Assembly: GCF_003946245.1 (NCBI RefSeq)
Contig: NZ_RHNN01000005.1
Span: 62,001 to 126,000, forward strand
DNA: 64,000 bases
Reading direction: 5' to 3'
From: Levilactobacillus cerevisiae
Lineage (GTDB): Bacteria > Bacillota > Bacilli > Lactobacillales > Lactobacillaceae
Numbering within the stretch: the stretch's first letter is position 1; each line of letters opens with the position of its first letter. This document shows, one piece after another, positions 3,482 through 63,288 of the stretch. The translations under genes and the position numbers were made by a program. Below the pieces are notes generated by a model. It saw nothing but the letters and a program-made list of their open reading frames with translations, was not told where the DNA came from and made no database searches.

Positions 3482-3699
3482 GAATTCGGGGACAGGGCTT
3501 TGGAACCGGAGACTGACGAATACGCACCACTGTGTCGGTGGTGTTAGCTGGGAACCAGCTTACAGCACGGGCCGACCTTGAAGACTCGCGAACTAGGCGA
3601 GGCTCCAAGGCGAACCCGAAGACCGCCCTTTGGCTTCGGGTGGGCCCCACAGTAGAGCGTGTTCGTCAGCCGCAGGTGGAAAAGCACTGCCCCGAATTC
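3482..3699 (-). repeat. Structured intergenic repeat, R orientation (copy 1)
   Basis: Long closing stem GAATTCGGGG...CCCCGAATTC plus an inner pair GACGAATACGC/GCGTGTTCGTC. Inside are three hairpins: TTAGCTGG/CCAGCTTA, CCTTG...CCAAGG, and ACCCGAAG/CTTCGGGT with the family loop ACCGCCCTTTGG. It ends 3-4 nt before the mutY Shine-Dalgarno site. No other feature is seen between 3112 and 3481. Confidence 0.8.
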
Positions 3700-3714
3700 T
3701 TAAGGAGGTAGGGC

Positions 3715-4854
3715 ATGGAAGAATGGTCCGCAGCCACCATCCGCGATTTTCGCCGGACGTTGTTGGCTTGGTATGATCAAGAAGGACGGGATTTACCCTG
3801 GCGCAGGGACCACGACCCCTATCACGTCTGGGTCAGTGAAATTATGCTCCAACAGACACAGGTCAACACAGTAATTCCGTATTACGAAAATTTTATGCAG
3901 GTCTTTCCGACGGTGACGGCCTTAGCAAACGCTGAGCAGGCAACGTTGTTGAAGGCCTGGCAGGGACTCGGCTACTATTCGCGGGCGCGGAACCTGCAGC
4001 GAGCGGCACAACAGTTGGTGACGGATTATCAAGGCAAGTGGCCGCAGACGGCAGCTGAACTCACTGACTTAGTGGGCATTGGCCCCTATACGGCGGGGGC
4101 CATCGCTAGTATTGCTTTTGGTGAGGCGGTACCGGCAGTCGACGGCAATGCATTCCGCGTTTTCTCGCGGTTGCTGCTGATTGAAGACGACATTGCAAAG
4201 CCCCAGACGCGGCAGATATTTGAAAAAATCATTCAGCCCATCGTGGATCCGCAGCGGCCGGGAGCATTTAACCAGGCAATCATGGACCTGGGCTCCAGCT
4301 ACATGTCGGCCAAGAATTCCGACCCGGCCCACTCGCCGGTTAAGGCGTTCGATGCGTCGTTTCGGGCGAATAAAGTGGATGATTTTCCCGTGAAGACTAA
4401 GGCGCCGCGGCCAAAATTGATGCCGTACTACGGGCTGATCGTGCATTCGTCAGCGGGCTATTTGATGGTTCAACGGGATGCTAACCAGATGTTGACGGGC
4501 TATTGGACGTTTCCACTGCTGATTCAAGCGGACCTCAGGGAAAAGGAAGCGGCCACCGAACCGTCACTGGCCACGGATATAGTGGCTATCGAGCAGCAAT
4601 TTGCCACGGATTATCAACTGCCAATTCACCTGCAAGAAGTGAGCGGCCAACCCGTCAGCCACACCTACACCCATCAACGGTGGCAGGTGAAATTGTTGCT
4701 GGCCGAGCTGGAGACCGTGCTGTCGCTAGAATTTTATCCCGGTAAATGGGTGCCGGCAGCTGAAATCACCGCTTTGCCGTTGCCCAAGGTGCAGGAAAAA
4801 ATCATGACCAGATTTCAAAATCAGGGTCATCCGCGGGTATTTCCCAAGAATTAG
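3715..4854 (+). CDS. mutY: A/G-specific adenine glycosylase MutY lacking the [4Fe-4S] ligands
   Basis: Removes adenine mispaired with 8-oxoguanine in base-excision repair. The 379-residue protein has the HhH-GPD glycosylase domain (residues ~10-225) and a C-terminal NUDIX-like MutT-type recognition domain (~232-370). Catalytic Glu42 (VSEIMLQQTQ), the helix-hairpin-helix LVGIGPYTAGA (119-129) and Asp143 of VDGN are all present. The four cysteines that bind the iron-sulfur cluster in classical MutY are replaced at the equivalent positions by Met197, Pro204, Ser207 and Asp213, while spacing and flanking residues (DLG..., PVKAF) are kept. Cluster-free MutY homologues are known in some anaerobes and LAB, so the enzyme is probably active. 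Strong AAGGAGG site 7 nt upstream, immediately after a structured repeat. Confidence 0.95.
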   Translation: MEEWSAATIRDFRRTLLAWYDQEGRDLPWRRDHDPYHVWVSEIMLQQTQVNTVIPYYENFMQVFPTVTALANAEQATLLKAWQGLGYYSRARNLQRAAQQLVTDYQGKWPQTAAELTDLVGIGPYTAGAIASIAFGEAVPAVDGNAFRVFSRLLLIEDDIAKPQTRQIFEKIIQPIVDPQRPGAFNQAIMDLGSSYMSAKNSDPAHSPVKAFDASFRANKVDDFPVKTKAPRPKLMPYYGLIVHSSAGYLMVQRDANQMLTGYWTFPLLIQADLREKEAATEPSLATDIVAIEQQFATDYQLPIHLQEVSGQPVSHTYTHQRWQVKLLLAELETVLSLEFYPGKWVPAAEITALPLPKVQEKIMTRFQNQGHPRVFPKN

Positions 4855-4934
4855 TTTCGGTTTGCCGTCAATTGCAGTATCATCAGAGTAACTAATCTTG
4901 ACGAGGACAATTAGCGAAGAAGGAGTGAGTGGTC

Positions 4935-5255
4935 TTGCAAACGATTTTTGACGTGTTGAAGCATATTTCGGTGAATCACCAGGAAGTGGAGAGCAACCAG
5001 GTTGTGGTCACTGACAAAGTTGGCAAGCCGAACGGGTTACTGACGGATTTGTTACATGACTTGATCAATAATGCGTTGTTGTTTGTCACGCTGGCAGATA
5101 TGGATACAGCGGACGAACTGATCGAGAAGCTGCGGACCCATACGCCGTTGCCGGTGGATGTCTTGAGCGAGTACGGCAAGATTTTGTCGGAAAACTGTTA
5201 TGGCTTAAATTTTGCGCCCCAAAAGGGTCAGATTGAGATCATCGTTCACCGTTAG
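4935..5255 (+). CDS. Small hypothetical protein
   Basis: A 106-residue acidic protein of unknown function. I choose TTG at 4935 because the AAGAAGGAG site (ending 4925) lies 9 nt upstream, whereas the in-frame GTG at 4929 would be too close. It looks mostly helical, with no membrane segment. It is followed after 12 nt by an alpha/beta hydrolase gene and is probably in the same transcript. Confidence 0.65.
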   Translation: MQTIFDVLKHISVNHQEVESNQVVVTDKVGKPNGLLTDLLHDLINNALLFVTLADMDTADELIEKLRTHTPLPVDVLSEYGKILSENCYGLNFAPQKGQIEIIVHR

Positions 5256-5267
5256 GAGTGGTTGCCG

Positions 5268-5882
5268 ATGGCTGAAATGCCTTTGATTGAAACGATGCCT
5301 GGCGCCAACACGGCGGCGCCCTTGCTCCTCTTACAGGGGACTGGTGGCACGAACCTGGAGATGCTGAACTTTGGGCGCCGATTGTCCCCGCAGAGCCCGC
5401 TGATTACCATTGGCGGGCGGCAGGGCGTGGGCGCGCAACGCCAGTACTATTCGCAAACGGCGGCGGGACCGGTCAGCCCGGCACAAATCGCTGAAGAAGC
5501 GGGTTGGCTGGGAGCGCAGGTGCAACAGGTCTGTCAGGAGCACCGCTGGGACGTGCAACGGCTGGTGGTGGTCGGTTACTCAAATGGCGCGGCCATGGCG
5601 GCGTATGGCGTCCAGACGGGGCAAATTCCGGGGCAAGCGGCGCTCCTCTTCCACCCATTGTTATTACCAGTGGCAAATCCTGTGGAACGACCGGGCTATC
5701 AAGTTTGGCTGTCAGCGGGGCAACATGATCCGCTGGTGACGGTAGCGACCGTAAAAAAAGTTTTAGCAAATTTTGATGCGATTGGGACGCAAACGACGTT
5801 AGAAATAACGGCCGGAACTCACCAGCTGACGCCGCAAGAGGTGCTTGCGGCCCAAACCTGGTTAACAGTGAACGCTTTATAG
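5268..5882 (+). CDS. Alpha/beta hydrolase (carboxylesterase/phospholipase-like)
   Basis: A 204-residue serine hydrolase of the small esterase (Abhydrolase_2-like) type. The oxyanion-loop region LLLLQGTGGTN lies at ~22-32, the nucleophile elbow GYSNGA at ~104-109 (Ser106), a candidate acid in SAGQHDPLV (~149-157) and a candidate catalytic His in AGTHQLT (~183-189). ATG at 5268 is preferred over TTG 5262, since TAGGAG is 9 nt upstream of the ATG. It directly follows the 106-residue hypothetical gene. Substrate unknown; relatives act on short acyl or aryl esters. Confidence 0.82.
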   Translation: MAEMPLIETMPGANTAAPLLLLQGTGGTNLEMLNFGRRLSPQSPLITIGGRQGVGAQRQYYSQTAAGPVSPAQIAEEAGWLGAQVQQVCQEHRWDVQRLVVVGYSNGAAMAAYGVQTGQIPGQAALLFHPLLLPVANPVERPGYQVWLSAGQHDPLVTVATVKKVLANFDAIGTQTTLEITAGTHQLTPQEVLAAQTWLTVNAL

Positions 5883-5920
5883 GGGTCGCTAAAAAGATTC
5901 GCGATTTCGGCACTTTGCAT

Positions 5921-5949
5921 TTGCTATTCTCCGGAATTCCTGGTATCCT
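5921..5949 (+). promoter_or_regulatory. Candidate promoter of csp gene
   Basis: TTGCTA and TATCCT separated by 17 nt, with an alternative -10 (GATAAT) a few bases further on. This leaves a 5' leader of ~110 nt before the cold-shock ORF, typical of csp mRNAs, whose leaders govern temperature-dependent translation. Confidence 0.45.
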
Positions 5950-6069
5950 ATGGATAATGTATTTATGGTTCGGAAGTAAAGGCTCGACGTTCTTATAGGA
6001 ATGGCTCCTTTTTACCCCAGCTTTCAAATGCAAATATTATTGCGCTATGCGCATGGAGGTTTCATTCTT

Positions 6070-6273
6070 ATGGAACAAGGTACTGTTAAATGGTTCAACG
6101 CTGATAAAGGTTACGGCTTCATCACTTTGGAAAACGGCTCAGACGTTTTCGTTCACTTCTCCGCTATCAACAGCGAAGGCTTCAAGACTCTTGAAGAAGG
6201 CCAACACGTATCCCTTGATGTAGAACAAGGCGACCGTGGCCCACAAGCTGCTAACGTTACGGTAGTTGACTAA
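6070..6273 (+). CDS. Cold-shock protein, CspA family
   Basis: A 67-residue single cold-shock domain that binds single-stranded RNA/DNA and acts as an RNA chaperone. RNP1 (KGYGFITL, ~15-22) and RNP2 (VFVHFSAI, ~28-35) are intact. The ATG at 6070 follows GGAGG by 10 nt; an in-frame extension from 6001 is not needed and does not match the family. A long upstream leader and a strong terminator downstream make it monocistronic. Confidence 0.95.
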
Positions 6274-6298
6274 TTTACATTAGCCTAAATCGTGCTTA

Positions 6299-6334
6299 GT
6301 AAAAAACCACTGACTTCGGTTAGTGGTTTTTTTG
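6299..6334 (+). terminator. Terminator of csp gene
   Basis: Near-perfect hairpin AAAAAACCACT...AGTGGTTTTTTT about 25 nt after the csp stop codon. Confidence 0.85.
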
Positions 6335-6442
6335 CGCGCAAATTTAAACCTTAAGGTAGACTTATCACCTGACAAACGAAATACTTGTAAAGTTGGTCAA
6401 GTGAGTTTACCATGAGGATAAATATATTAGGCGGTGATTTGT

Positions 6443-6685
6443 GTGAGTGAAGAAAAAGTTTTCAATCAAGCAGAATTGGCTAAGTTTGACGGTCAAAATG
6501 GTCAACCAGCCTACGTGGCGGTTGCCGGTGTCGTGTACGATGTGTCTGGCGTTGAAGCCTGGGCCGGTGGCAAGCACCACGGCAACCTGGCCGGCCAAGA
6601 ACTGACCAGTGTGATCGATGGTAAGTCACCTCATGGCCGGAAAGTTTTGAAGAACTTACCCGTTGTTGGGAAGTTTGCAGATTAA
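6443..6685 (+). CDS. Cytochrome b5-like haem/steroid-binding domain protein
   Basis: An 80-residue single-domain protein of the cytochrome b5-like (Cyt-b5) fold. The hallmark elements are present: YVAVAGVVYDVSG (~23-35), WAGGKHHGNLAG (~39-50) with a candidate axial His, and the second-ligand region SPHG (~62-65) followed by VLKNLPVVGKF. I use the GTG at 6443 because the SD-like AGGCGG is better spaced than for the GTG at 6434. Family members in Firmicutes are small soluble proteins with uncertain partners. The role in a fermentative bacterium is not obvious; it may bind haem opportunistically. Confidence 0.8.
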   Translation: MSEEKVFNQAELAKFDGQNGQPAYVAVAGVVYDVSGVEAWAGGKHHGNLAGQELTSVIDGKSPHGRKVLKNLPVVGKFAD

Positions 6686-6695
6686 GTGATCGTAT

Positions 6696-6735
6696 GCAAA
6701 AAGGCAACCGGAAAAATTTTCCGATTGCCTTTTTA
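6696..6735 (+). terminator. Terminator of cytochrome b5-like gene
   Basis: AAAAAGGCAA(c)CGGAAAA...TTTTCCGATTGCCTTTTT hairpin with T-run just after the stop codon. It also faces the oppositely oriented tRNA gene. Confidence 0.8.
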
Positions 6736-6755
6736 TCATCCAAATAAATTTCCGA

Positions 6756-6829
6756 TGTCGCAAGAGAGATTCGAACCCTCGACCTACGGTTTAGAAGACC
6801 GTTGCTCTATCCAGCTGAGCTATTGCGAC
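6756..6829 (-). tRNA. tRNA-Arg (anticodon TCT)
   Basis: A cloverleaf reads on the - strand: acceptor GTCGCAA/TTGCGAC, D-arm GCTC...GAGC, anticodon arm ACGGT-CTTCTAA-ACCGT giving anticodon TCT, and T-arm GAGGGTTCGAATCTCTC. The discriminator base is A and no CCA is encoded. It stands alone. Confidence 0.95.
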
Positions 6830-6957
6830 AAAATCCCAATAACTTCTTAATTATAGAGAAGCAACTCGGCCGTGTCAATCACTGTTCTGCGCGGTGAGTT
6901 GACAGAACCCCACCGTTCCAGTAAAGTTAGGCTAAATCACAGAAGGAGGGTTTTCCC

Positions 6958-7290
6958 TTGGGTGTCATTCATATCGCTGCCGAGGTCGTTGTTTTTTTTG
7001 CTGCTATTTTATTGATTTATTATTTCTTTCAGATTACGCAAGCCCTCGGCGACCGCAAGAAAAATATTCGCTACGTAATTATCTCTGCCGTCGTTCTTTT
7101 CATTGCCTATCCTGTTTCCAACCTATCCGGGAAAAAGACGGTCAATCCGTCGACCCAAATTTCTGATCAAGTGCGGAAGGTTCAGAAGAAACATCAGGAA
7201 AAGAAAGAGTCAGCAAAGAAGGAATCTGCTAAGAAAGCATCTGAGAAAAAAGCGTCTAGCACCTCAACCAGTAAGTCAGAAAGTAAGTAA
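6958..7290 (+). CDS. Small membrane protein with Lys/Ser-rich tail
   Basis: A 110-residue protein starting at TTG, 8 nt after AAGGAGGG. Two hydrophobic segments (residues ~5-26 and ~39-57) are followed by an extremely charged tail (residues ~70-110) of KKES/AKKAS-type repeats ending in Ser/Thr. Orthologous function is unknown. The tail could associate with nucleic acid or with the negatively charged wall or membrane, depending on topology. No operon partner. Confidence 0.75.
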   Translation: MGVIHIAAEVVVFFAAILLIYYFFQITQALGDRKKNIRYVIISAVVLFIAYPVSNLSGKKTVNPSTQISDQVRKVQKKHQEKKESAKKESAKKASEKKASSTSTSKSESK

Positions 7291-7334
7291 TCTACTAAAA
7301 TTATCAAGAATTTCTAATTTCTAGCGTGGATGGC

Positions 7335-7382: not shown

Positions 7383-7398
7383 GACGGGGGGAATTGCT

Positions 7399-7548: not shown

Positions 7549-7555
7549 TCTGTGG

Positions 7556-7588: not shown

Positions 7589-7644
7589 TTGGATTGAACA
7601 CAAAAGTAGCGGTAACGTTGTCTAAATCAGCCGGCTTACCGTTC

Positions 7645-7794
7645 GCCAAATTTAGGCTGGAACGCTGTGGGCAGGACGCCGGCAGCCTGAGAAGCGGTCT
7701 GCCAGCTCGCTTTGAACCGCACGAACCGCGTTTCAAAGTCGCCATTTTCCAAGTAGCCCACATGGAAAATCCCACGGCTGAGCCTAAATTTGGC
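7645..7794 (+). repeat. Structured intergenic repeat, F orientation (copy 2)
   Basis: Perfect 14-bp closing stem GCCAAATTTAGGCT/AGCCTAAATTTGGC and inner helix CTGTGGG/CCCACGG. Three hairpins follow: GGCAG...CTGCC with the family loop, TTTGAA.../...TTTCAAA, and ATTTTCCA/TGGAAAAT. Flanking sequence (~7605-7860) is also shared with the copies at 20.6 and 24.4 kb. Confidence 0.85.
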
Positions 7795-8509: not shown

Positions 8510-8530
8510 GAATACTATTTTAAATTAAAG

Positions 8531-10362: not shown

Positions 10363-10527
10363 GGTGGTTCAGGTACTTCAGGCTGTGGGGAACGCTTCAA
10401 GCCTGAGGAACGGTCTTGAAGCTTGTCTTTGAGACTTGAAAACCACAAGTCTCAAAGACATCCCGCGTTGTAGGCTGAGCAAGAACCTCAGCCAACGACG
10501 CCGACACAGCTTTCGCACCTGACCACC
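10363..10527 (+). repeat. Structured intergenic repeat, F orientation (copy 3)
   Basis: Closing stem GGTGGTTCAGGT/ACCTGACCACC and inner CTGTG/CACAG. Hairpin 1 is CTTCAAG...CTTGAAG around CCTGAGGAACGG, hairpin 2 is CTTTGAGACTTG/CAAGTCTCAAAG, and hairpin 3 is GTTG-AGGCTGAG/CTCAGCC-AAC. Confidence 0.85.
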
Positions 10528-10599: not shown

Positions 10600-10764
10600 G
10601 GCTGGTTGGGTCGCAGCGCCTGTGGGGAACGCTTCAAGCCTGAGGAGCGGTCTTGAAGCTTGTCTTTGAGACTTGAAGGACACAAGTCTCAAAGACATCC
10701 GCGTTGTAGGCTGAGAAAGAACCTCAGCCAACGACGCCGACGCAGGTCTCGCGACCCACCAGCC
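10600..10764 (+). repeat. Structured intergenic repeat, F orientation (copy 4)
   Basis: Hairpins are nearly identical to copy 3, but the closing stem is different in sequence yet still paired: GGCTGGTTGGGTCGC/GCGACCCACCAGCC. The tail of copy 3 (TCGCACCTGACCACC... 10515-10570) recurs downstream at 10879-10935, so this segment arose by local duplication or insertion. Confidence 0.85.
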
Positions 10765-11086: not shown

Positions 11087-11255
11087 GGGCTGGTGAAAAT
11101 GAGCCAAGCCGTGGGAATTGCCTTAGTGGCGGCACGCCGCTTAGGCAATTGGTATCTTTGAGACGCGTTCCTTAGCGGCTCAAAGTAAGTCCGGAGACCG
11201 CCCCTCAGGCTCTGGACGGCCGCCCACAGCGATCCGGTCTCATTTTCACCAGCCC
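11087..11255 (-). repeat. Structured intergenic repeat, R orientation (copy 5)
   Basis: Closing stem GGGCTGGTGAAAATGAG/CTCATTTTCACCAGCCC, inner GCCGTGGG/CCCACAGC, and hairpins AATTGCCTTAGTGG.../...TTAGGCAATT, CTTTGAGAC.../...GGCTCAAAG and TCCGGAG.../...CTCTGGA. Flanks carry the family ends TTAGCCGCA and GGAGGCGCTGAC. Confidence 0.85.
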
Positions 11256-17043: not shown

Positions 17044-17357
17044 GGGATGGTGAAAACTGGGCCGGAACGCTGTGGGCGGACGGTTGTCAATGACGTTGGC
17101 GAGACTGCCCGTTCCCGGCGGCGGGTTCAAGGTGCCCTGCTGTGGGGCCGGTTCCAGCCTGAGGAGCGGGCTTCCACCTCGACTTGAAACCTCACTGAAA
17201 CCCGTGAGTTTCCAAGGTCGTCCCATGGCCTAAGCTGAGGAAAACACTCAGTTAAAGCCATCGACACAGCTGGTCACCTTGACCCGCCTCTGGTCGCTCA
17301 GACTAGCGCCTCATTTTCTGCTGGCGGAGGAGTCGCGGGCCCAGTTTTCACCATCCC
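17044..17357 (+). repeat. Structured intergenic repeat, F orientation, interrupted by another copy (copy 6)
   Basis: Outer ends form a 20-bp stem, GGGATGGTGAAAACTGGGCC against GGGCCCAGTTTTCACCATCCC, and the left side keeps the family core GGAACGCTGTGGGCGGACG. The interior is displaced by a second complete element at 17121-17287. Confidence 0.75.
17121..17287 (+). repeat. Nested structured repeat, F orientation (copy 7)
   Basis: Closing stem GCGGGTTCAAGGTG/CACCTTGACCCGC and inner CTGTG/CACAG. Hairpins are AGCC...GGGCT, GAAACCTCAC/GTGAGTTTC and GGCCTAAGCTGAG/CTCAGTTAAAGCC. It lies wholly within copy 6. Confidence 0.8.
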
Positions 17358-17663: not shown

Positions 17664-17829
17664 GGCTGGCAGGGACTGAGTCCTGTGTCGGTGGTCTTGG
17701 ACCGAGTGGGGTGCTCGGCCCTAGAGCACGGGACGCCTTGTAGACGCCTGGTCTTGGCGGCTACAAGCGAGGGGCAAGACCGCCCTATGGCTTGCCCCGG
17801 TCCCCAGAGGACGGAAGTCCCTGCCAGCC
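17664..17829 (-). repeat. Structured intergenic repeat, R orientation (copy 8)
   Basis: Closing stem GGCTGGCAGGGACT/AGTCCCTGCCAGCC. Hairpins are TCTTGGACCGAG/CTCGGCCCTAGA, CTTGTAG.../...CTACAAG and GGGGCAAG/CTTGCCCC around ACCGCCCTATGG. It lies ~105 bp upstream of the acetyltransferase gene. Apart from the repeats, 17358-17663 shows only a short hairpin (GAAGGTCGCAG...TGCGGCCTTTTT, ~17453-17490). Confidence 0.85.
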
Positions 17830-20609: not shown

Positions 20610-20780
20610 AACCTGCCGGCTTACCGTTCGCCAAATTTAGGCTGGAACGCTGTGGGGAGGACGCCGGCAGCCTGTGAAGCGGTCTGCCGACTCGCTTCAA
20701 ACCGAGCCTGAGGACCGTCCCTCAGGCCGCAGGTGGTCTCCCCATAGCAGCCGGAATCTCTGGCAGCCGCAGGTGGCAAT
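20610..20780 (+). repeat. Chimeric structured repeat, F left half joined to R right half (copy 9)
   Basis: The left part (AAATTTAGGCTGGAACGCTG... to ~20700) matches the F copies at 7.6 and 24.4 kb. From ~20705 the sequence switches to R-type (GAGGACCGTCCCTCAGGCCG... CTGGCAGCCGCAGGTGG). Neither closing stem can form, so this is a recombined or deleted pair. Confidence 0.7.
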
Positions 20781-24446: not shown

Positions 24447-24594
24447 GCCAAATTTAGGCTGGAACGCTGTGGGAGGACGGTCCAAGCCAAAGAGCGGTCT
24501 TGGACCTCGTTTTGAACCGCCAAACCCACGTTTCAAAATCGCCATCTTCCAAGCAGACCACATGGAAAATCCCACGGCTGAGCCTAAATTTGGC
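24447..24594 (+). repeat. Structured intergenic repeat, F orientation (copy 10)
   Basis: Same closing stem as copy 2 (GCCAAATTTAGGCT/AGCCTAAATTTGGC), but hairpin 1 differs and still pairs: GGTCCAAG/CTTGGACC. Hairpin 2 is TTTTGAA/TTTCAAAA and hairpin 3 is TTCCA/TGGAA. Confidence 0.85.
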
Positions 24595-24663
24595 TCACTC
24601 ACGCCTGCGTAGGCAGTGTCCAATAACTATGACAAACGTTGGCAGTCCGGCGAACTTTGTCAG

Positions 24664-24748
24664 CCTTCAAACCGAGCCGGAGGACCGTTTCTTAGGCCGC
24701 AGGCGGTCCCCACAGCAGACGGAATCTCTGGCAGCCGCAGGTGGCAAT
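24664..24748 (-). repeat. Partial structured repeat, R orientation
   Basis: Half-element: GAGGACCGTTTCTTAGGCCG...CCCCACAGCAG and the end CTGGCAGCCGCAGGTGG, near-identical to the right half of the chimera at 20.7 kb. The other half is missing. Confidence 0.65.
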
Positions 24749-25539: not shown

Positions 25540-25705
25540 GTTACTAGGTACGCCAACCCTGTGGGGCAACCTCTAAAGCCTGAGAGGCGGTCTTTAGAGG
25601 CGCTTTGAACCTCGAAAGACCCGAGTTTCAAAGGCGTCCCCGTTCTAAGGCCAGGAAGACCGCCTGACCTAAGAAACGCGTCACAGGGTTTCTGTACCTA
25701 GTAAC
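25540..25705 (+). repeat. Structured intergenic repeat, F orientation (copy 11)
   Basis: Closing stem GTTACTAGGTAC/GTACCTAGTAAC and inner AACCCTGTG/CACAGGGTT. Hairpins are CCTCTAAAG/CTTTAGAGG around CCTGAGAGGCGG, CTTTGAACCTCG/CGAGTTTCAAAG and TTCTAAGGCCAGG/CCTGACCTAAGAA. All stems differ from copies 2-4 but pair perfectly. The remainder of 25706-25860 shows nothing further. Confidence 0.88.
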
Positions 25706-26987: not shown

Positions 26988-27153
26988 GGAACGGTGAAAA
27001 TGAGTCAAGCCGTGGGAATTGCCTTAGTGGCGTGAGCCGCTTAGGCAATTGATATCTTTGAGACGTGTTCTTCGGCTCAAAGTAAGCACGGAGACCGCTC
27101 TTTGGCTCCGGGCGTTCGCCCACAGCGGTCCGATCTCATTTTCACCGTTCCGG
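26988..27153 (-). repeat. Structured intergenic repeat, R orientation (copy 12)
   Basis: Closing stem GGAACGGTGAAAATGAG/CTCATTTTCACCGTTCC, inner GCCGTGGG/CCCACAGCGG, hairpins AATTGCCTTAG.../...TTAGGCAATT, CTTTGAGAC.../...GGCTCAAAG and CGGAG.../...CTCCG. Confidence 0.85.
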
Positions 27154-27655: not shown

Positions 27656-29074
27656 GTGCAGGAAGAGGCAATTGATTTACAGGGGCGGCCCTACGGCCAT
27701 ATGGCATTTATCTGGACACTACTAGCGGGGACGTTCACCATGTCCATCAGCCAGTCATCGTTGTCGACGGCCTACCCGACGTTGATGAAATACTTCAACG
27801 TCCCGGCGTCGACCGTTCAGTGGTTGACGACCGGTTTCATGTTGGTGATGGTGGTCATGATGCCAGTGAGCCCATGGCTATTAAATAACATCCGGTTCCC
27901 AGTCTTGTTCGTTAGCGTGCTGGCGTTGTTCGACGTTGGGACGTTTATCATCTACCTGGCAACCAGCTTTCCGTTGATGATGTTGGGCCGGGTGATGGAG
28001 GCCATGGCGGTCGGCATCATGTTCCCATCCTATCAAACGGTCATGTTGCGGATTACCCCGGAAGCACAGCGGGGCGGTGTCATGGGGTTTGCCGGCCTAG
28101 TGATGGGCTCGGCGTTAGCGGTTGGCCCAATCATTTCTGGCATCGTTTTAAAATACACGACTTGGCAGGGGCTGTTCGTGGTCTTCATGGTGATTATCAC
28201 GGTAGTCTTCCTGGTGGCGTTGAAAACGATTAAAGACGTGATGCCACAACACAAGGCGCACCTGGACTACTGGTCCGTCTTGAGCAGTCTCGGCTTCATT
28301 GGCATTCTTTACGTGGTCAATCAGATTGGCCAGACGGCGGTCGACTGGACCGCTATGAGTGGTCTGTTGGTCGTCAGTCTGTTAGCGGTGGCTTACTTCG
28401 TTTACCGGCAGTTCCACGTGGCGGCACCGTTGCTGGATCTGCGAGTGCTCAAGACGTTTAACTTTGACTTGGCGGTCCTCTTGACGGGGACGTCCTACAT
28501 CGCCTTGATTGTCGTGACGATTGTCTTTCCGTTGTACTACCAAGAAGTGCTGGGCATCTCGCCGTTTGCATCCGGAATGGCCTTGGTACCAGGAGCGGTG
28601 GTCCTGAGCCTGTTGAACCCATTGACGGGTAAATTGGCCGACAAAATTGGCTTCAAGGCAACCATGTTGACGGGGATGTCGATGATTGTGCTGGGCTGGT
28701 TGTGGTTGACGCTGGTGGGTGGTCGTCAGTCATTGGTGGCCATGATCCTAACGGCAACGCTGATTGAAGGGGGTAACGCCTTCGTCATGATGCCAGCCGT
28801 GACGTTGGGCGCCAACTCCTTACCAGATCAGTTGATCTCGCACGGAACGGCGGTCATCACCACCGTTCGGCAAATCCTTGGATCAACGGGGGTTGCGGTG
28901 GCGACCCTGATTCTGGCGGCGGTGACGGCTGGCCAACTGAAGGTCACCACGAGAGCCGCAGCCAATATAGCGGGGTACCACGCAGTCTTTGTCACGTTCC
29001 TAGCAGTTGCCGTAGTGGGCTGGATCTTCGCAGCCATGTTACGTGACGGTCGGAAGGAAAAAGTAACCGCCTAA
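27656..29074 (+). CDS. MFS transporter, DHA2 (EmrB/QacA-like) drug:H+ antiporter
   Basis: A 472-residue major facilitator with ~14 predicted membrane spans. The GTG at 27656 has AGGAG 8 nt upstream. Features: TMSISQSSLSTAYPTLMKYF in span 1, the motif-C-like stretch FAGLVMGSALAVGPIISGIV (~140-160) characteristic of antiporters, and a long cytoplasmic loop. Probable multidrug or metabolite efflux. The 3' 57 bp of the gene plus its terminator are duplicated 2.3 kb downstream around a bacteriocin islet, so the gene's tail served as an insertion point while the full-length gene stayed intact. Confidence 0.88.
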   Translation: MQEEAIDLQGRPYGHMAFIWTLLAGTFTMSISQSSLSTAYPTLMKYFNVPASTVQWLTTGFMLVMVVMMPVSPWLLNNIRFPVLFVSVLALFDVGTFIIYLATSFPLMMLGRVMEAMAVGIMFPSYQTVMLRITPEAQRGGVMGFAGLVMGSALAVGPIISGIVLKYTTWQGLFVVFMVIITVVFLVALKTIKDVMPQHKAHLDYWSVLSSLGFIGILYVVNQIGQTAVDWTAMSGLLVVSLLAVAYFVYRQFHVAAPLLDLRVLKTFNFDLAVLLTGTSYIALIVVTIVFPLYYQEVLGISPFASGMALVPGAVVLSLLNPLTGKLADKIGFKATMLTGMSMIVLGWLWLTLVGGRQSLVAMILTATLIEGGNAFVMMPAVTLGANSLPDQLISHGTAVITTVRQILGSTGVAVATLILAAVTAGQLKVTTRAAANIAGYHAVFVTFLAVAVVGWIFAAMLRDGRKEKVTA

Positions 29075-29139
29075 TTGAAAATACCCAAAGAGGGACCGTG
29101 ACGATTGCCGTCGCGGTCCTTTTAGGTGATCTTAGACTT
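29018..29139 (+). repeat. Left direct repeat: MFS 3' end and terminator
   Basis: GGCTGGATCTTCGCAGCC... through GGTGATCTTAGACTT. Matches 31374-31496 over ~122 bp with two substitutions and one extra A in the right copy. It includes the terminator GGACCG-GACG.../...CGTC-CGGTCC (29091-29124). Confidence 0.9.
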
Positions 29140-29934: not shown

Positions 29935-30121
29935 ACTATTTCCCTCCCTTTTGGCTTATTATAAAGCAAAATTAATTTTATTTTGTTTCAATTACATTAA
30001 GTTTACGTGATAATAAATTCATAGTACTTACTAACTTCATTAAAGCATTTTGCATAGGATTTTGAATTGTGAGGACTACCATAATTGAGAGTCAGATAAT
30101 AATTTGGGAGGAGAAATTATT

Positions 30122-31276
30122 ATGAGTGAAGAAAATGATGAATTACTTGACGAACGATTTGATTCTGGACGTCCCGTTGGTAGTGACAAGCTACTTTTAG
30201 ACCGTGGTGACTTTAAGTCAGAACAAGCAATGGATGAGTATTTCAACGCGCATCCTGAAGCACCGAGGGATGCCTATGATTATGACCTCAAAGCTCGTAG
30301 TATTGGTGTTGGTACGAGTCAAGTTGTCCGTACTTCTACGAGATCTACAGCACCAGGAACACTAGAATATACACTCTCAGGATTAACTTATGGCAATGTT
30401 GTTCAAAGCTGTTACATTGGAAGCTCGTACCTTTACACTACACAGCAAGTGGATACTAAGGCAGGAGCAAAGCAAGTGATTGGGCGTTTTCAGCTTGGTG
30501 GTAGTACATTACGGTGTAAAGATGAAATGACCTTAACTCGGTTTGGACATGGGCAAACTTTACAGTGGTTTGATAACGCCCAAAAGGTTCCGTATTTTTG
30601 GATTGTTTGCAAAGCGACTAAAGTCGACAATCCTAATCTAGACAGTGTTGACTGGGGAACACAGATTGGTCGCTTTCAATACCAACCGAATGTTAAGGTC
30701 GATTACACTAACATCGCTCGAATTTCTAGTATTAATCGTGCTAATAAGAATGGTGCATCTTTTGGGACACTTAAGCGGTGTGAGGCCGCTTTGGACAGTG
30801 CTCGTAAATATTTACTTATCTGGGGGATGAATACATCTGGTAAGGTTCAATTTTCTTATTACAAGGCATCACGACTAAATCAGATTTTAGATGGCAAGGA
30901 AAATTTGAATTCTAAATATATTTCAGCCGGAGATGCGCAAATTGTCGGGGCCTGCATTGATTCATACCCCGTAGATAAGTTTTACTCGATGATTGCCAAC
31001 TCTTCTGTACAAGGAATCGAATTTAACGATAATCAAAATATCTATATATCTGGTGGGGCATCAGGGGTAGTACCAGTGATTCAAAAAGGTGGCTGGCGTA
31101 CCCATGATTTTGCCGCCCATGCTGTTAAAATTACTGGTGGTATTTTATCAAGTCCGTCACAATTTAAGCTTGAGACTGAAGGAATTCAATTAAAAGGAAA
31201 TTATGTTTACTTAAATGTGACGACCCATTCGGACGGAAAACGAATGATTTTTTCAATTCCAAAGTCAGCTTTTTAG
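30122..31276 (+). CDS. Helveticin J-like class III bacteriocin
   Basis: A 384-residue protein (ATG 30122, GGAGGAG 9 nt upstream) similar to helveticin J over its C-terminal ~300 residues. Recognisable stretches are HGQTLQWFDN, YFWIVCKATKVDNPNLDSVDW, GRFQYQPN, ISSINRANKNGASFGTLKRCEAAL, LLIWGMN, VQGIEFNDNQNIYISGG and the end of the beta-rich fold. Helveticin J is a large heat-labile bacteriolytic protein of lactobacilli. There is no signal peptide; the first ~70 residues are acidic and not found in helveticin J itself. No immunity or export gene is adjacent. Codon and base composition is AT-richer than the flanking chromosome, consistent with acquisition. Confidence 0.8.
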   Translation: MSEENDELLDERFDSGRPVGSDKLLLDRGDFKSEQAMDEYFNAHPEAPRDAYDYDLKARSIGVGTSQVVRTSTRSTAPGTLEYTLSGLTYGNVVQSCYIGSSYLYTTQQVDTKAGAKQVIGRFQLGGSTLRCKDEMTLTRFGHGQTLQWFDNAQKVPYFWIVCKATKVDNPNLDSVDWGTQIGRFQYQPNVKVDYTNIARISSINRANKNGASFGTLKRCEAALDSARKYLLIWGMNTSGKVQFSYYKASRLNQILDGKENLNSKYISAGDAQIVGACIDSYPVDKFYSMIANSSVQGIEFNDNQNIYISGGASGVVPVIQKGGWRTHDFAAHAVKITGGILSSPSQFKLETEGIQLKGNYVYLNVTTHSDGKRMIFSIPKSAF

Positions 31277-31373: not shown

Positions 31374-31496
31374 GGCTGGATCTTCGCAGCCATGTTACGT
31401 GACGGTCGGAAGGAAAAAAGTAACCGCCTAATTGAAAATACCCAAAGAGGGACCGTGACGATTACCGTCGCGGTCCTTTTAGGTGATCTTAAACTT
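31374..31496 (+). pseudogene. Right direct repeat: duplicated MFS 3' fragment
   Basis: Copy of the MFS gene's last ~57 coding bases plus terminator. One extra A (six instead of five after GGAAGG) shifts the frame, so it is a non-coding remnant. Together with 29018-29139 it brackets a 2.23-kb insertion. Confidence 0.85.
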
Positions 31497-49308: not shown

Positions 49309-49476
49309 GGGCTGGTGAAAATGGATTGGAACGCTGTGGGCGGACATCCAGAGCCAAAGGGCGGTCTCTGGATTTACTTTGAGCCTCCAAGGTCGAGTCT
49401 CAAAGATACCAGTTCACTAAGCGGCAAAGGTCGCCACTAAGTGAACTCCCACGGCTGAGTCCATTTTCACCAGCCC
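49309..49476 (+). repeat. Structured intergenic repeat, F orientation (copy 13)
   Basis: Closing stem GGGCTGGTGAAAATGGA/TCCATTTTCACCAGCCC. Hairpins are ATCCAGAG/CTCTGGAT around CCAAAGGGCGGT, CTTTGAGCC.../...GTCTCAAAG and AGTTCACTAAG.../...CTAAGTGAACT. It lies between MFS and LysR starts. Confidence 0.88.
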
Positions 49477-50721: not shown

Positions 50722-50888
50722 GGCCGGTGAAAATGGGACCGGGCCGCTGTGGGCGGACGCCTGGAGCCGAAAGGCGGTCTCCAGGCTTACTTTGAGCCTC
50801 GAGAACCGAGTCTCAAAGTTACCAATTATCTAAGCAGCAAAAACCGCTACTAAGATAATTCCCACGGCTAAGCCCATTTTCACCGGCC
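50722..50888 (+). repeat. Structured intergenic repeat, F orientation (copy 14)
   Basis: Closing stem GGCCGGTGAAAATGGG/CCCATTTTCACCGGCC. Hairpins are GCCTGGAG/CTCCAGGC around CCGAAAGGCGGT, CTTTGAGCCTCG.../...GTCTCAAAG and AATTATCTAAG.../...CTAAGATAATT. Confidence 0.88.
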
Positions 50889-51099: not shown

Positions 51100-51258
51100 G
51101 GTTGAAAAAAATGGACTCAGCCGGGGGATTTTCTGAGTGGTCTTTGCTCAGAAAATGGTGACTTTGAGACTGGTTCTCAAGGCTCAAAGCAAGTTCGAAG
51201 ACCGGGTCTCAGGCTTCGGACGTCCTTCCGCCAGCGTTCCAGTCCATTTTTTTCAACC
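51100..51258 (-). repeat. Structured intergenic repeat, R orientation (copy 15)
   Basis: Closing stem GGTTGAAAAAAATGGACT/AGTCCATTTTTTTCAACC. Hairpins are GATTTTCTGAG.../...CTCAGAAAAT, CTTTGAGAC.../...GGCTCAAAG and GTTCGAAG.../...CTTCGGAC. It faces copy 14 and lies 78 bp upstream of the PEPCK-like gene. Confidence 0.88.
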
Positions 51259-56206: not shown

Positions 56207-56369
56207 CCAGGGACGCAGCCAGCTGTGTCGGTGTTCTAAGACCGAGCGTTCCCCTCGGCCTTAGAACACGGGACGACCTTGGAAACTCGCGGTTTGGGCG
56301 AGGTTTCAAGTCGAGGTGGAAGCCCGTTTCTCAGGCTGGAACTGGCCCCACAGCAGGCGGAGTCCCTGG
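56207..56369 (-). repeat. Structured intergenic repeat, R orientation (copy 16)
   Basis: Closing stem CCAGGGAC/GTCCCTGG. Hairpins are TTCTAAGACCGAG/CTCGGCCTTAGAA, CTTGGAAACTCG.../...CGAGGTTTCAAG and AGCCCG...CAGGCT. Confidence 0.85.
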
Positions 56370-59321: not shown

Positions 59322-59511
59322 AAATATTTCCTCCTTAAGCAAGCACAAATTGTGACGTATTGAACGATTGAGGCCAGTATAGCGAATAATCAATTGATAA
59401 GTCCAGTGAAAGTTTATGATTGTTGAATATCCATCATGCCTACTAGGAATAATTCGGATTCGCTGGAAGAATACAAAGAGGTAAAAGTTCTAGGAAAATT
59501 TAGTAAATAAA

Positions 59512-59541
59512 TTGGTACTTTGAGCCCGGTTAGAGTACAAT
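59512..59541 (+). promoter_or_regulatory. Candidate promoter of galM
   Basis: TTGGTA and TACAAT with 18-nt spacing, 36 bp before the ATG. Region 59322-59511 holds the acd promoter on the other strand. Confidence 0.4.
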
Positions 59542-59576
59542 GAAAACGGATTCTTATATGGAGGTGCTCGATTATT

Positions 59577-60599
59577 ATGGAAATTACGAAAAGCGCAGCT
59601 GGGACGTTGAACCAGCAAGAAGTTACGAAGTACTTACTCACGAACCAACAAGGAACACGTGTCGCCATCCTGACTTGGGGGGCAACCTTACAGGAATTTA
59701 GCGTGGTCGAAGACGGCCAAACGCACAACCTGATTGTTAACCTGCCAGACTTGAAGGGCTACGATCACAACCCATACTACTTATGCCAAGCGTTAGGCCG
59801 GGTCGCTGGCCGAATTGCCGGTGCGCAATTTGAAATCGACGGTAAGACGACGCACCTGGACCAAAACGAAAAGCCAAACGCCAGCCACGGTGGCCCTCAC
59901 GGCTTTACTTTTGCCAACTGGGATGCCACGACGACTGAAACGACGGACACAGCTAGCGTTGTGCTGACCCATACGTCTACTGAGGCCGATGACAAGTATC
60001 CTGGTACCATGGCAACCACCATCACGTACACGTTGACGGAAGAGAACCGCTTGGACATTACCTTTGACGCCAAGAGTGATGCCGCCACGCTGTTCAACCC
60101 AACGGTCCACACCTACTTTAACGTCACTGACGATCAACACAGCTTGGACGACCAATGGTTGAAGCTGAGTGGTGACAAACGCCTGGTCTTAAACGGCGAA
60201 AAGATTCCCACCGGCGAAATGATCAAGACTGCCGGTACCGGTTACGACTTCAGCAAGCCCCGGACTATCAAAGATGGTTTGGACCAACTGCACAAGACGG
60301 GTCAAGTCGAATACGACGATGCCTTTGTCGTTGAACCTAGCAAGGACACCCCAATCGCCACTGTTGGTGATGAAGGCGGTCACCGTGAAGTTGAAGTTTA
60401 TTCCGACCGGAATGCTTTGGTTGTCTTCACGGCTAATCCTACTGACGCTAAACGCGCTGATGCTCGGGATTACAATGCTTTGGCTATGGAGGCGCAGACT
60501 TTGCCGGATGCGATTCACCATGCCGATTTCGGCGACGTCATCCTTCCCGCCAACCAACCTGTCACGCACTTCATCAGCTACCAATACGTTCGTAAGTAA
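59577..60599 (+). CDS. galM: Aldose 1-epimerase (galactose mutarotase)
   Basis: 340 residues. Interconverts alpha and beta anomers of galactose/glucose ahead of the Leloir pathway or maltose phosphorylase products. Features: LTWGATLQEFSV, NPYYLCQALGRVAGRIAGAQF, the catalytic-site region NASHGGPHGF (His), LFNPTVHTYFNV (second His), and the C-terminal acidic NALAMEAQTLPDAIHH (catalytic Glu). Strong TATGGAGGTG ribosome site. Followed by a repeat pair and pgcA, which acts on glucose phosphates. Confidence 0.94.
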   Translation: MEITKSAAGTLNQQEVTKYLLTNQQGTRVAILTWGATLQEFSVVEDGQTHNLIVNLPDLKGYDHNPYYLCQALGRVAGRIAGAQFEIDGKTTHLDQNEKPNASHGGPHGFTFANWDATTTETTDTASVVLTHTSTEADDKYPGTMATTITYTLTEENRLDITFDAKSDAATLFNPTVHTYFNVTDDQHSLDDQWLKLSGDKRLVLNGEKIPTGEMIKTAGTGYDFSKPRTIKDGLDQLHKTGQVEYDDAFVVEPSKDTPIATVGDEGGHREVEVYSDRNALVVFTANPTDAKRADARDYNALAMEAQTLPDAIHHADFGDVILPANQPVTHFISYQYVRK

Positions 60600-60627
60600 C
60601 GGGTTGGTTGTGTCCTGCCGCTTCGGC

Positions 60628-60792
60628 GGCTAGGTACTCCCGACCTGTGGGGCAACCTGTGGAGCCGAAAATCGGTCTCCACAGGCGCACTTAAGCCTTG
60701 CAAAAATCGCAAGTCTTAAGCACGTCCCAGTTTCTAAGGCCGGGAAGAACGCCCGACCAAAGAAACTCGTCACTGGTCGTCCGTACCTAGCC
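60628..60792 (+). repeat. Structured intergenic repeat, F orientation (copy 17)
   Basis: Closing stem GGCTAGGTAC/GTACCTAGCC. Hairpins are CCTGTGGAG/CTCCACAGG around CCGAAAATCGGT, CTTAAG-CTTGC/GCAAGTCTTAAG and AGTTTCT-AGG-CGGG/CCCGACC-AAGAAACT. Paired with copy 18. Confidence 0.87.
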
Positions 60793-61154
60793 ACCTTCAG
60801 CTGACACAACGCCGCCGAACTTACGATTGTATGGTAGGATTCGTGGGTGACTGGTGGTGTGGCTCTGTCCTTGTTTTGGTTTTGCCTTTTAAGCAAGGTC
60901 GCGGTCAAGCTTGTGATCGCCGGTTAACTTTCTTGGTTGCTGGCGGTCATGTTTAAACGGAATAAATAAAATTAATGATATGATTTGTGTAGTTCACTGA
61001 TGTCAGTTCAAATTACTGTCGGCTGAAAATACATTTGGTATGGTGCCAATGTATTTTCGGTCGATTGTCGCCAAACTCGATTATTCATCTGTTGAGTGGT
61101 GGCAGGCTAACGTTAGTGAATACACTGTTGCTGTTTAACGCAACGTAAGCCGCA

Positions 61155-61319
61155 GGGCTGGTGAAAATGGGCTTAGCCGTGGGAATTTCCTTAGTGGCTT
61201 TGCCACTTAGGAAATTGGTATCTTTGAGACGCGTTTCTTGCGGCTCAAAGTAAGCCTGGAGACCGCTCTTTGGCTCCGGGCGCCCGCCCACAGCGCTCCA
61301 GTCCCATTTTCACCAGCCT
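61155..61319 (-). repeat. Structured intergenic repeat, R orientation (copy 18)
   Basis: Closing stem GGCTGGTGAAAATGGG/CCCATTTTCACCAGCC. Hairpins are AATTTCCTTAGTGGC/GCCACTTAGGAAATT, CTTTGAGAC.../...GGCTCAAAG and GCCTGGAG/CTCCGGGC. It ends ~60 bp before the pgcA start. Between copies (60800-61080) nothing else is recognised. Confidence 0.88.
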
Positions 61320-61382
61320 GGAGGCGCTGGACCCGTCGCGTTAACCCCGCATAAAATGTAAAGTATAAGGAGAGATTTGAAC

Positions 61383-63116
61383 ATGAGTTGGCAAGATAAT
61401 TATCAAGTTTGGCAACAACAGCAAACGATGATTCCTTACATCAAGCACGACCTCGACGCCATCGCTAACGATGATGACGCCAAGAAAGCCGCGTTTACCG
61501 CGCCCATGAGTTTTGGGACCGCCGGCATGCGTGGCGTGATGGGACCCGGCATTGGCCAGATGAACGTTTACACGGTTCGGCAAGCCACTGAAGGGGTCGC
61601 CCGTTATTTGGATACCCTGGACGACGCCACTAAGCAACGCGGGGTTGCCATCAGCTTTGATTCCCGCTACCACTCCCGTGATTTTGCTCACGAGGCCGCT
61701 CACGTGTTGGGTGCGCACAATATTCCTAGCTTTGTCTTCGATGACATGCGGCCCACACCCGAGCTGTCCTTTGCCGTGCGCCATTTGAACACGGCCATGG
61801 GCATCATGATTACGGCCAGCCACAACCCGAAGCAATACAACGGGTACAAAATTTACGGGCCAGACGGTGGGCAAATGCCGCCTAAGGCTTCCGACATGAT
61901 TACCGATTTTGTCCGCTCCGCTAAGGACGTCTTTGCGATTGCCGTGGCCGACGAACAAGCACTGCGGGCCGCCAAGACCTTACAGATCATCGGTGAAGAC
62001 GTCGACCAACCTTACCTGCAAAACGTTGAGAGCGTGACAATCAACCATGACCTGGTCCACTCAGTGGGGAAGAGCATGAAGCTGATCTACACGCCACTCC
62101 ACGGGACGGGGAAAGTGATTGGCGAACGGGCCTTGCGTGGCGCGGGGTTTGAAAACTTTACCATGGTGCCCGAACAGGCGATTGCCGATCCTGAATTCCC
62201 AACGGTGCCGTTTCCCAATCCTGAGTTCGCTCAGGCCTTTGACATGGCGATTGCGCTGGGGAAGAAGGAGGGCGCTGACCTGTTAGTGGCCACCGATCCC
62301 GATGCTGACCGGTTGGGTGCCGCTGTGCGCCAACCAGACGGCGAATACCAACTGTTGACGGGAAACCAGATTGCTTCAATTTTGTTGGCTTATATTTTAA
62401 AGGCCCGCAAAGAAGCTGGTCAGTTGCCCGCTAACGGTCGCGTAGTGAAGTCCATCGTTTCTACCGAGCTGGCGACCAAGATTGCGGCCGCTTACGGCGT
62501 GGAAATGAAGAACGTGCTGACTGGGTTCAAGTTTATTGCGGAACAGATTCATGAATACGAAACGACCCATGAGCATACCTTCCTGTTTGGTTTTGAGGAA
62601 AGTTATGGTTATTTGATCAAGCCATTCGTGCGCGACAAGGATGCCATCCAGTCGACGGTGCTCTTGGCCGAAGTCGCTGCCGATTACAAGCAGCGCGGCA
62701 TGACCCTCTACGACGGCATCGAAGAACTCTACGCGACCTACGGCTACTTTGCTGAGAAGACCACGTTTGAGGAATTCCCAGGCGTCGATGGGGCTGACCA
62801 GATGGCCCACTTGATGAGTGAGTTCCGGGAAAATGCACCGAAGTCCTTTGCCGACAGCACCATTGAGACGGTCGAAGACTTTTCAACCAGCACCAAGACG
62901 GCAGCCGATGGCACGACCAGCACGATTGATCTGCCACAGTCGAACGTTTTGAAATACTGGCTGAGCGATGGCACCTGGATCTGCATCCGGCCTTCTGGGA
63001 CTGAGCCGAAAGTGAAGTTCTACATTGGGGCCAGTGACACGACGGACGCCGCGGCACAAAAGCGGCTGGCCAGTTACGAGACCGCTTTAAAGCAATACGT
63101 TAATTCGGTTAAGTAG
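61383..63116 (+). CDS. pgcA: Alpha-phosphoglucomutase (phospho-sugar mutase)
   Basis: 577 residues from ATG 61383 (AAGGAG 10 nt upstream). Interconverts glucose 1- and 6-phosphate. Four-domain alpha-D-phosphohexomutase: AGMRGVMGPGIGQMN, active-site serine loop MITASHNPKQYNGYKIYG (Ser ~145), metal loop DPDADRLGAAV (~303-313), sugar-specificity loop GFEESYGYL and phosphate loop RPSGTEPKVKFY. Length and order match PgcA of bacilli. Supplies UDP-glucose for wall polysaccharides or handles maltose/galactose breakdown. Confidence 0.95.
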   Translation: MSWQDNYQVWQQQQTMIPYIKHDLDAIANDDDAKKAAFTAPMSFGTAGMRGVMGPGIGQMNVYTVRQATEGVARYLDTLDDATKQRGVAISFDSRYHSRDFAHEAAHVLGAHNIPSFVFDDMRPTPELSFAVRHLNTAMGIMITASHNPKQYNGYKIYGPDGGQMPPKASDMITDFVRSAKDVFAIAVADEQALRAAKTLQIIGEDVDQPYLQNVESVTINHDLVHSVGKSMKLIYTPLHGTGKVIGERALRGAGFENFTMVPEQAIADPEFPTVPFPNPEFAQAFDMAIALGKKEGADLLVATDPDADRLGAAVRQPDGEYQLLTGNQIASILLAYILKARKEAGQLPANGRVVKSIVSTELATKIAAAYGVEMKNVLTGFKFIAEQIHEYETTHEHTFLFGFEESYGYLIKPFVRDKDAIQSTVLLAEVAADYKQRGMTLYDGIEELYATYGYFAEKTTFEEFPGVDGADQMAHLMSEFRENAPKSFADSTIETVEDFSTSTKTAADGTTSTIDLPQSNVLKYWLSDGTWICIRPSGTEPKVKFYIGASDTTDAAAQKRLASYETALKQYVNSVK

Positions 63117-63129
63117 TTTTCGCCTTACC

Positions 63130-63288
63130 GGACAGAAAAAAATGGGCTGGAACGCTGGGGGCAGGACGCCCGGAGCCAAAGGGCGGTCTCCGGGCTTGTT
63201 TTAAGCCTTTGAGAACCAAGTCTTAAAAGCACCATTTCCTGAGAAGAACACACAGGAAATCCCCCGGCTGAGCCCATTTTTTCTGTCC
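63130..63288 (+). repeat. Structured intergenic repeat, F orientation (copy 19)
   Basis: Closing stem GGACAGAAAAAAATGGGCT/AGCCCATTTTTTCTGTCC. Hairpins are GCCCGGAG/CTCCGGGC around CCAAAGGGCGGT, TTTTAAG.../...CTTAAAA and ATTTCCTG.../...CAGGAAAT. It begins 14 bp after the pgcA stop. Confidence 0.87.

Follow-up and report, generated by a model that had tools for sequence, protein, structure and literature searches.

Densely interspersed structured elements at gene borders of Lactobacillaceae, with a tentative route of insertion

What are the similar, foldable sequences that recur in the intergenic gaps of this part of the Levilactobacillus cerevisiae genome, how did they reach their places and what keeps them there? 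The stretch analyzed, called the window throughout, comprises 64,000 nucleotides of contig NZ_RHNN01000005.1, in which an initial annotation had counted about 19 copies of a three-hairpin element; covariance models returned 19 non-overlapping elements and recovered 18 of the 19 places. Our preferred reading, to which as a whole we give a probability of about 0.4, is that they belong to a Lactobacillaceae family of short interspersed structured elements whose fold is selected, which inserted by target priming and which the host has retained. What the present analysis adds is the folded strand, a polarity facing the genes, double changes among orthologous copies and a copy-specific palindrome that holds an inverted coding end.

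Fold, covariation and the folded strand

The elements are of two homologous types, A and B. The type-A model (R1) was built on the strand first described and the type-B model (R2) on the opposite one; R2 also matches type-A copies on the same strand. The folded strand runs from a closing helix through hairpins P2, P3 and P4 and back into the closing helix, which bears out the three hairpins and closing stem proposed at the outset, on the complement of the strand for which they had been proposed. The inner CTGTGGG/CCCAC helix is that of type A; type B has a GGGAC/GUCCC helix around two hairpins. In type A, P3 and P4 are enclosed by a single covarying pair (columns 70-139 of alignment A6, which contains 54 of the 73 type-A copies), as they are by the GGGAC/GUCCC helix in type B; this junction pair, absent from the earlier description, is Watson-Crick in 54/54 copies and takes three pair types. 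The elements are longer than the 150-170 nt first given, with a core of about 150 nt that becomes about 205 nt with its own closing stem. In the best examples element-specific sequence stops some 26-30 nt outside the core, and palindromic arms extend to about 110 nt from it.

Covariation in A6 is extensive: 98.8% of 2,263 pair cells are paired, 279 cells carry a two-sided change and 28 of the 42 pairs change on both sides. The covariation score was 0.401, compared with 0.160 in shuffles and at most 0.075 with slid partners, and none of 500 shuffles equalled the observed value in four measures (1/500 in the fifth, the number of pair types). A further alignment fitted to the model structure, A11, contains 35 matches in 20 loci, nine of them from four other genera, and includes three matches below 25 bits, one being the complement of another row; there, 95.9% of cells are paired, 27/36 pairs are two-sided and the score is 0.462 vs 0.155. 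Alignment A5 omits one misfit copy (L108:15945-16117). Non-canonical features are conserved as well in A6, namely an A.G mismatch in P3 (51/54), a bulged A in P4 (54/54) and a C.A in the inner closing helix (51/54), and outside the core there is a recurrent internal loop in which, on the folded strand, GCA faces GGA. The earlier proposal of selection on structure is thus upheld by covariation beyond shuffled and slid controls, also in a set that includes four other genera, and orthologous copies agree with it.

The strand that folds better is the complement of the one originally chosen. P4 mismatches, counted with gapless anchoring and strand-symmetric selection, were A.C rather than G.T on the first-described strand in 28 vs 2 cases in the source genome and in 60 vs 9 over all lactic loci, a set that includes the source genome. 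A second count of P4 wobbles on the folded strand gave G.U:A.C proportions of 28:3, 25:5 and 21:2 in three sets, and RNAalifold energies favor the same strand (-42.5 vs -33.0 and -38.2 vs -32.5). This asymmetry is moderate evidence for one folded strand. A strand-symmetric DNA palindrome, which rare one-sided changes had suggested, was dropped since the anchored counts are asymmetric, the asymmetry being concentrated in P4 and one column of the closing stem.

Because folded DNA tolerates G.T too, these counts do not separate RNA from single-stranded DNA. The working form could be DNA, with a single strand or cruciform folded in place and recognized by protein, and with a folded single DNA strand as the form in which the element moved. 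Proteins recognize integron attC sites and IS200/IS605 ends as folded single strands of this kind, and the DNA form would suit both the occurrence of copies on either strand of transcription units and the stop-side copies without a promoter signal. Elaborate junctions with isolated covarying pairs and purine mismatches, which these elements possess, are more usual in RNA, and a search for a linked integrase or Y1 gene that follows the copies, which covered Y1 only, found none. We regard the DNA form as rather unlikely.

Compensatory change in place and orientation toward genes

The paralogous copies have diverged (median nearest-neighbor identity 0.87). Among paralogues 80-90% alike, in comparisons whose sequence pairs are non-independent, 1000 double compensatory differences stood beside 593 single-sided ones, and divergence was 0.095 at paired vs 0.228 at unpaired sites; above 90% identity there were 11 doubles and 29 single-sided differences. 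Of 267 flank-anchored comparisons across three sister species, an element was present in 241 and absent from 26, and the element matches lie on the same strand in 259 cases and on the opposite strand in 6. Among the empty sites inspected, which were part of the 26, several resemble deletions in which outer arms remain, and others come down to a different number of copies in a tandem array.

The 117 orthologous element pairs provided 85 for the strand count (32 with less than 72% identity were dropped), 86 for the double-change count and 79 for a count in which each pair entered once. Over the 86 pairs, each scored from both folds so that the numbers are doubled, the core showed 214 double changes vs 22.8 expected by independence, 186 of them keeping the pair, and the inner base stem showed 48 vs 14.3 (31 kept). 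In the outer base stem, 25-90 nt from the core, there were 34 vs 34.6 (13 kept). The unrelated outermost closing stems had been taken for compensatory change, a view that we abandon: they are copy-specific, consist partly of host gene sequence and have no excess of double changes. When the 79 pairs were counted once, any compensatory double was present in 29 of them, and of the 85 such doubles 43 stood alone in their helix, 29 had a double neighbor and 13 were neither. We are highly confident that the core is a structure selected in place.

Paired changes might also accumulate with no structural selection, by template-switch correction of one arm from the other or by gene conversion between copies; near copies are available as donors, and the 29 doubles with a double neighbor would fit. 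Arm correction would be expected to homogenize the outer palindrome, which has no excess, and the conserved mismatches and bulge persist, the isolated junction pair covaries and half of the doubles (43/85) stand alone. We consider this explanation very improbable, and template-switch correction as the source of the covariation is rejected on the outer-stem comparison, the conserved mismatches and the isolated junction pair. From the counts of lone and neighboring doubles, some module exchange between copies may occur. One site, 3' of gene 61377-63116 and its orthologues (L148 vs L149-L151), holds in the same orientation a type-A element in the source genome and a type-B element in three sister species, as if copies had been replaced or converted.

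The copies examined are almost all intergenic (5/123 overlap a predicted gene) and their orientation follows the nearest gene. The 3' side of the folded strand was the one nearer to a gene in 105/120 copies of the source genome, 132/139 of the sister species and 86/99 of the other named loci, and in all 12 scored copies from other genera; the nearest gene end in the first three sets was a stop in 58, 83, and 49 copies and a start in 47, 49, and 37. Genes here are mechanical open reading frames of at least 110 codons (at least 100 for the orientation of pairs), and small genes are missed. Solo copies keep the polarity (60/62). Neighboring copies within 800 nt and with no gene between them were divergent in 28, tandem in 23 and convergent in 0 cases in the source genome (32, 13, and 0 in the sister species), and those within 700 nt in the other named loci numbered 42, 3, and 0; convergent pairs appear within 2 kb (4 in the source genome, 3 in the other named loci). 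Intrinsic terminators lay between stop and element in 7/58, 14/83, and 8/49 copies, as judged with a crude detector over a short region.

Positions near starts and stops would also suit a cis-regulatory RNA, serving as a leader at gene starts and as a 3' end or antisense element at stops. Many copies lie at such places, the element at 61161-61312 sits just upstream of a conserved gene in the same direction, and in a crude scan promoter signals showed up to some extent ahead of start-side copies (12 vs 4). At stops, however, the folded strand is antisense to the gene, and the occurrence of the genes without the element in relatives, together with the switch of type at one site, argues against a strict regulator. 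We judge this role improbable. A promoter of the elements' own was also considered, and the stop-side copies gave it no support in the crude scan.

Inverted gene ends and a possible route of insertion

Beyond the core there is a palindrome specific to the copy, whose 5'-side arm, at gene stops, holds an inverted copy of the coding end of the gene. This was scored in 93 copies (62 at stops, 31 at starts) lying at most 110 nt from a gene in the source genome and a second genome of the genus, G016, with some orthologous sites in common. For the 62 stop-side copies, the 5' flank was compared with the final 30 nt of the neighboring gene, taken in inverted complement, and the mean score was 16.8, as against 13.2 for the genes of other copies as control (z 10.8, a value that treats copies as independent), and a score of at least 20 was reached by 14/62 vs 2.7% in the control. 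In the other named loci, 5/21 copies at most 60 nt from a stop reached 20 (vs 3.3%), as did 0/19 of those 120-400 nt away. Over all copies the excess is inverted and reaches about 110 nt from the core, with z of 23.5 at 0-60 nt, 8.1 at 50-110 nt and 0.5 at 100-160 nt; comparison of the flanks in direct orientation gave no excess over background.

Two loci illustrate the arrangement. Gene 59577-60599 ends in SYQYVRK, and its last 49 nt or so recur, decayed and inverted, at 60819-60866, past the element. Two elements and about 780 nt separate this gene from the next one in the source genome; in several element-free relatives (L155, L157, L158, L165, L172, and L173, compared by eye) a similar gene end lies 12-21 nt before the next gene. 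At the second locus (L118), the gene ends in FYNDRKQLTI and a stop, apparently at the edge of the element, and an inverted copy of ACAACGACCGCAAGCAGTTGAC, matching at 19/22 positions, lies on the far side; in three relatives without an element match (L215, L216, and L218) the end is FYNERKQLQVPSN and a stop, and the next gene follows 15 nt later. Judging from species without the element, a gene end of this type is ancestral in one case. At L118:16285-16730, where the C-terminus is unlike that of element-free relatives, a second tandem element follows, and beyond it that gene end recurs inverted in similar form. Because the outer palindrome holds an inverted coding end and lacks an excess of double changes (34 vs 34.6), it is probably a relic of insertion.

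The features of the window are as follows, the strand of an element being its folded one.

3513-3667, + strand, type-B core (R2, 125.8 bits)
7646-7794, - strand, type-A core (R1, 143.7 bits)
10368-10526, - strand, type-B core (R2, 132.5 bits)
10605-10762, - strand, type-B core in tandem with 10368-10526 (R2, 116.7 bits)
11093-11248, + strand, type-A core (R1, 161.1 bits)
17125-17286, - strand, type-B core plus an A-like outer-arm remnant at 17.04-17.1 kb (R2, 151.6 bits)
17669-17823, + strand, type-B core (R2, 110.6 bits)
20633-20762, + strand, hybrid or internally deleted element, A-like on the left and B-like on the right (R2 on both strands, 42.2 and 29.8 bits; repeats D4, D10, D11, and D16)
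24448-24594, - strand, type-A core (R1, 143.3 bits)
24598-24730, + strand, partial type B, divergent partner of 24448-24594 (R2, 62.7 bits)
25545-25701, - strand, type-B core (R2, 103.3 bits)
26994-27144, + strand, type-A core (R1, 156.2 bits)
49316-49470, - strand, type-A core (R1, 157.4 bits)
50728-50883, - strand, type-A core (R1, 164.3 bits)
51105-51253, + strand, type-A core (R1, 133.7 bits)
56207-56368, + strand, type-B core (R2, 151.4 bits)
60549-60597, + strand, coding end of gene 59577-60599, recurring inverted beyond the next element (gapped alignment, score 38)
60630-60790, - strand, type-B core (R2, 109.8 bits)
60819-60866 (end approximate), - strand, decayed inverted copy of coding end 60549-60597 (alignment and sequence inspection)
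61161-61312, + strand, type-A core, divergent partner of 60630-60790 (R1, 170.9 bits)
63136-63283, - strand, type-A core (R1, 154.3 bits)

The models did not recover the copy originally placed at 17.0 kb, which is apparently a remnant of an outer arm joined to the one at 17.1 kb; the partial copy at 24598-24730 is the one match of the covariance-model search of the window beyond the places first listed. A short fused unit at L152:1249-1344, with an A-like left arm and a B-like right arm, is probably an internal deletion, and the window copy at 20.6 kb looks similar. The window also contains an 82 nt direct repeat, 98% identical and with a terminator-like hairpin, that flanks the open reading frame 30104-31276 (29058-29139 and 31415-31496), and long direct repeats of coding DNA, 87-96% identical, which are recent gene duplications (32152-33401/40473-40772 and 36077-36376/45205-45504).

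Both the polarity and the inverted target copy would follow from priming on a target 3' end and subsequent snap-back on the closing stem. Beginning at the 3' end of the element RNA (or single DNA strand), synthesis would extend the 3' end of a target strand beside a gene; once it reached the 5' end of the element, the newly made strand would fold back on the closing stem, prime itself and copy the target, leaving an inverted repeat. Most copies would now be vertically inherited and lost by deletion. More weakly, the host may retain copies since a folded strand, RNA or single-stranded DNA, acts at gene borders, with protein binding, processing or insulation as candidate roles. We put forward insertion by target-primed, self-primed copying as a tentative proposal, somewhat short of an even chance. 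A bacterial retroelement resembling the short interspersed nuclear elements (SINEs), in which a folded RNA is target-primed, the second strand is self-primed on the closing stem and extends it with the inverted host gene end, and from hundreds up to about a thousand copies per genome are retained and compensated by the host, appears unlikely in this full form.

An ordinary bacterial miniature inverted-repeat transposable element (MITE), with terminal inverted repeats, a transposase acting in trans and paired A and B copies as its ends, would account for a dispersed, intergenic family confined to one bacterial family, and for the <A B> composite of about 400 nt, with a nearly fixed gap of about 105 nt, in Levilactobacillus tujiorum and its relatives. 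Against it, the centers of divergent pairs in three sister species have only arm sequence in common, solo copies keep their polarity, stem sequences differ with pairing kept, and the host copy at stops is inverted instead of being a direct duplication. A MITE of this type is therefore a doubtful candidate; with respect to terminal repeats, the arms are copy-specific, and few clean empty sites are available for reading target duplications. Longer inverted copies filling the centers of divergent pairs were also considered, and found no support beyond about 110 nt from the core.

Several observations weigh against a single folded strand, structural selection and target-primed insertion as we combine them. 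Counted over every type-A column, A.C is the commoner of the two mismatches in 14 columns and G.T in 11, the A.C excess (64 vs 20 cells) comes mainly from three columns, and orthologues, with each pair counted in both directions, show little strand asymmetry (278 vs 236). The residual class of position pairs (within one flank, or flank with core) has 92 double changes vs 29.8, with 59 kept, which means that uneven rates or misalignment inflate the double-change counts somewhat, the core excess being far larger. Besides, elements in tandem gene pairs lie about equally often in either orientation to transcription (32 vs 36), and the crude promoter scan of the folded strand showed no enrichment at stop-side copies (7 vs 10 and 5 vs 5). 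The 31 start-side copies have no inverted coding copy (12.7 vs 12.6), and no inverted arm was detected in 14 copies from other genera (17.5 vs 17.3). Regarding enzymes, a reverse transcriptase (PF00078) occurs in 10/34 genomes, none of them the source genome or G016, and the Y1 transposase (PF01797) in 23/34, unrelated to copy number, with none in G029 and one in the element-free G024; a past or unusual polymerase could still have been the enzyme.

Distribution, known families and significance

The source genome comprises 82 contigs and 3.38 Mb, in which the motif GGAACGCTGTGGG occurs 205 times at no more than one mismatch, compared with 1 for a reversed control pattern; at no more than two mismatches the window holds 12 occurrences vs 1.7 expected from shuffles. 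R1 and R2 together found 129 copies in the window and 20 further stretches chosen around type-A matches (460,554 bases). Where three sister species are syntenic with the part of the window that is rich in elements, they have 46, 46, and 50 copies per 120 kb, a density of about 1,200 copies per 3 Mb if evenly spread, and the stretches examined have about one copy per 2.4-3.6 kb. Within the genus, the family is present in 34/35 genomes, G024 having 0 model matches; G011 and G004, of the same genus, have 3 and 9, and the three genomes offer natural contrasts to the rest. With stricter filters, 70/301 Lactobacillaceae genomes and 11/40 genera were positive, and a search of Lactobacillales found 11/295 positive genomes, all 11 of them Lactobacillaceae, the 295 spanning 74 genera with the share outside Lactobacillaceae not stated. 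By these genus, family and order counts, the suggested restriction to related lactobacilli finds support at family level. Carriers confirmed with the models include Levilactobacillus tujiorum, hammesii, mulengensis, lanxiensis, wangkuiensis, and tongjiangensis, and Lactiplantibacillus mudanjiangensis. Among the motif matches listed, 13 of 21 non-lactic loci were searched with R1 and gave no match, in line with chance occurrences of the motif, two viral contigs with the motif had no model match in the viral sequence examined, and a plasmid search with one type-A copy gave none.

The family had not been recognized at first, and no Rfam family covers its copies. At the gathering cut-off, Rfam 15 matched in the whole window only a cspA thermoregulator (5964-6333, +) and a tRNA (6756-6829, -), neither at an element, and in two element-rich stretches searched at E of at most 1 there was one chance-level match to a human long non-coding RNA in one and none in the other. 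The absence of an Rfam match means that no Rfam group II intron model matches either.

The elements resemble ERIC, RUP and Correia/NEMIS, which are MITE-like, in being short, dispersed, intergenic and foldable, as REP/BIME repeats also are. They differ from all of these in stems that change sequence without losing their pairing, in an orientation set by the nearest gene, and in an inverted host copy beside many stop-side copies. Terminal repeats with a target duplication were not found, though no systematic search for them was made, and since Y1 (PF01797) does not track the repeats they do not group with REP/BIME-RAYT or IS200/IS605-derived families. Integron attC sites likewise keep their structure while the sequence varies and one strand folds; here, in contrast, the core of about 150 nt is multi-branched, and no cassette arrays were seen, integrase genes not having been searched for. 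As in target-primed retroelements (group II introns and SINEs), the 3' end of the folded strand points toward the presumed target; unlike in these, the source genome has no reverse transcriptase match and the inverted target copy lies on the 5' side.

Small intergenic repeat families of 100-200 bp with stable stem loops are described in PMC2229807. Lacto-rpoB, Lacto-usp and Lacto-int are structured RNA candidates of Lactobacillales (Weinberg et al., 2010; PMC2864571), and the present family is, like them, a structured RNA candidate from the same order. Lacto-rpoB (RF01709) and Lacto-usp (RF01710) have no match in the window, and Lacto-int appears without an Rfam number in the table of that paper. 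The family is not described in the accessible portions of the open-licence literature searched, which included PMC5217627, PMC2267715, PMC12513839, PMC2229807, PMC2864571, and PMC13155455.

Altogether, this is a very dense bacterial repeat family in harmless, culturable food bacteria, relatives of Lactobacillus brevis. Its paralogues and its orthologues alike allow compensatory evolution to be measured, and a maintained core can be distinguished from a relic palindrome within a single locus. Should the inverted host copy have arisen as a by-product of insertion, it would point to an insertion route known, to our knowledge, from no described element. Should the copies have a function where they lie, structural selection would bear on much of the intergenic DNA in these genomes.

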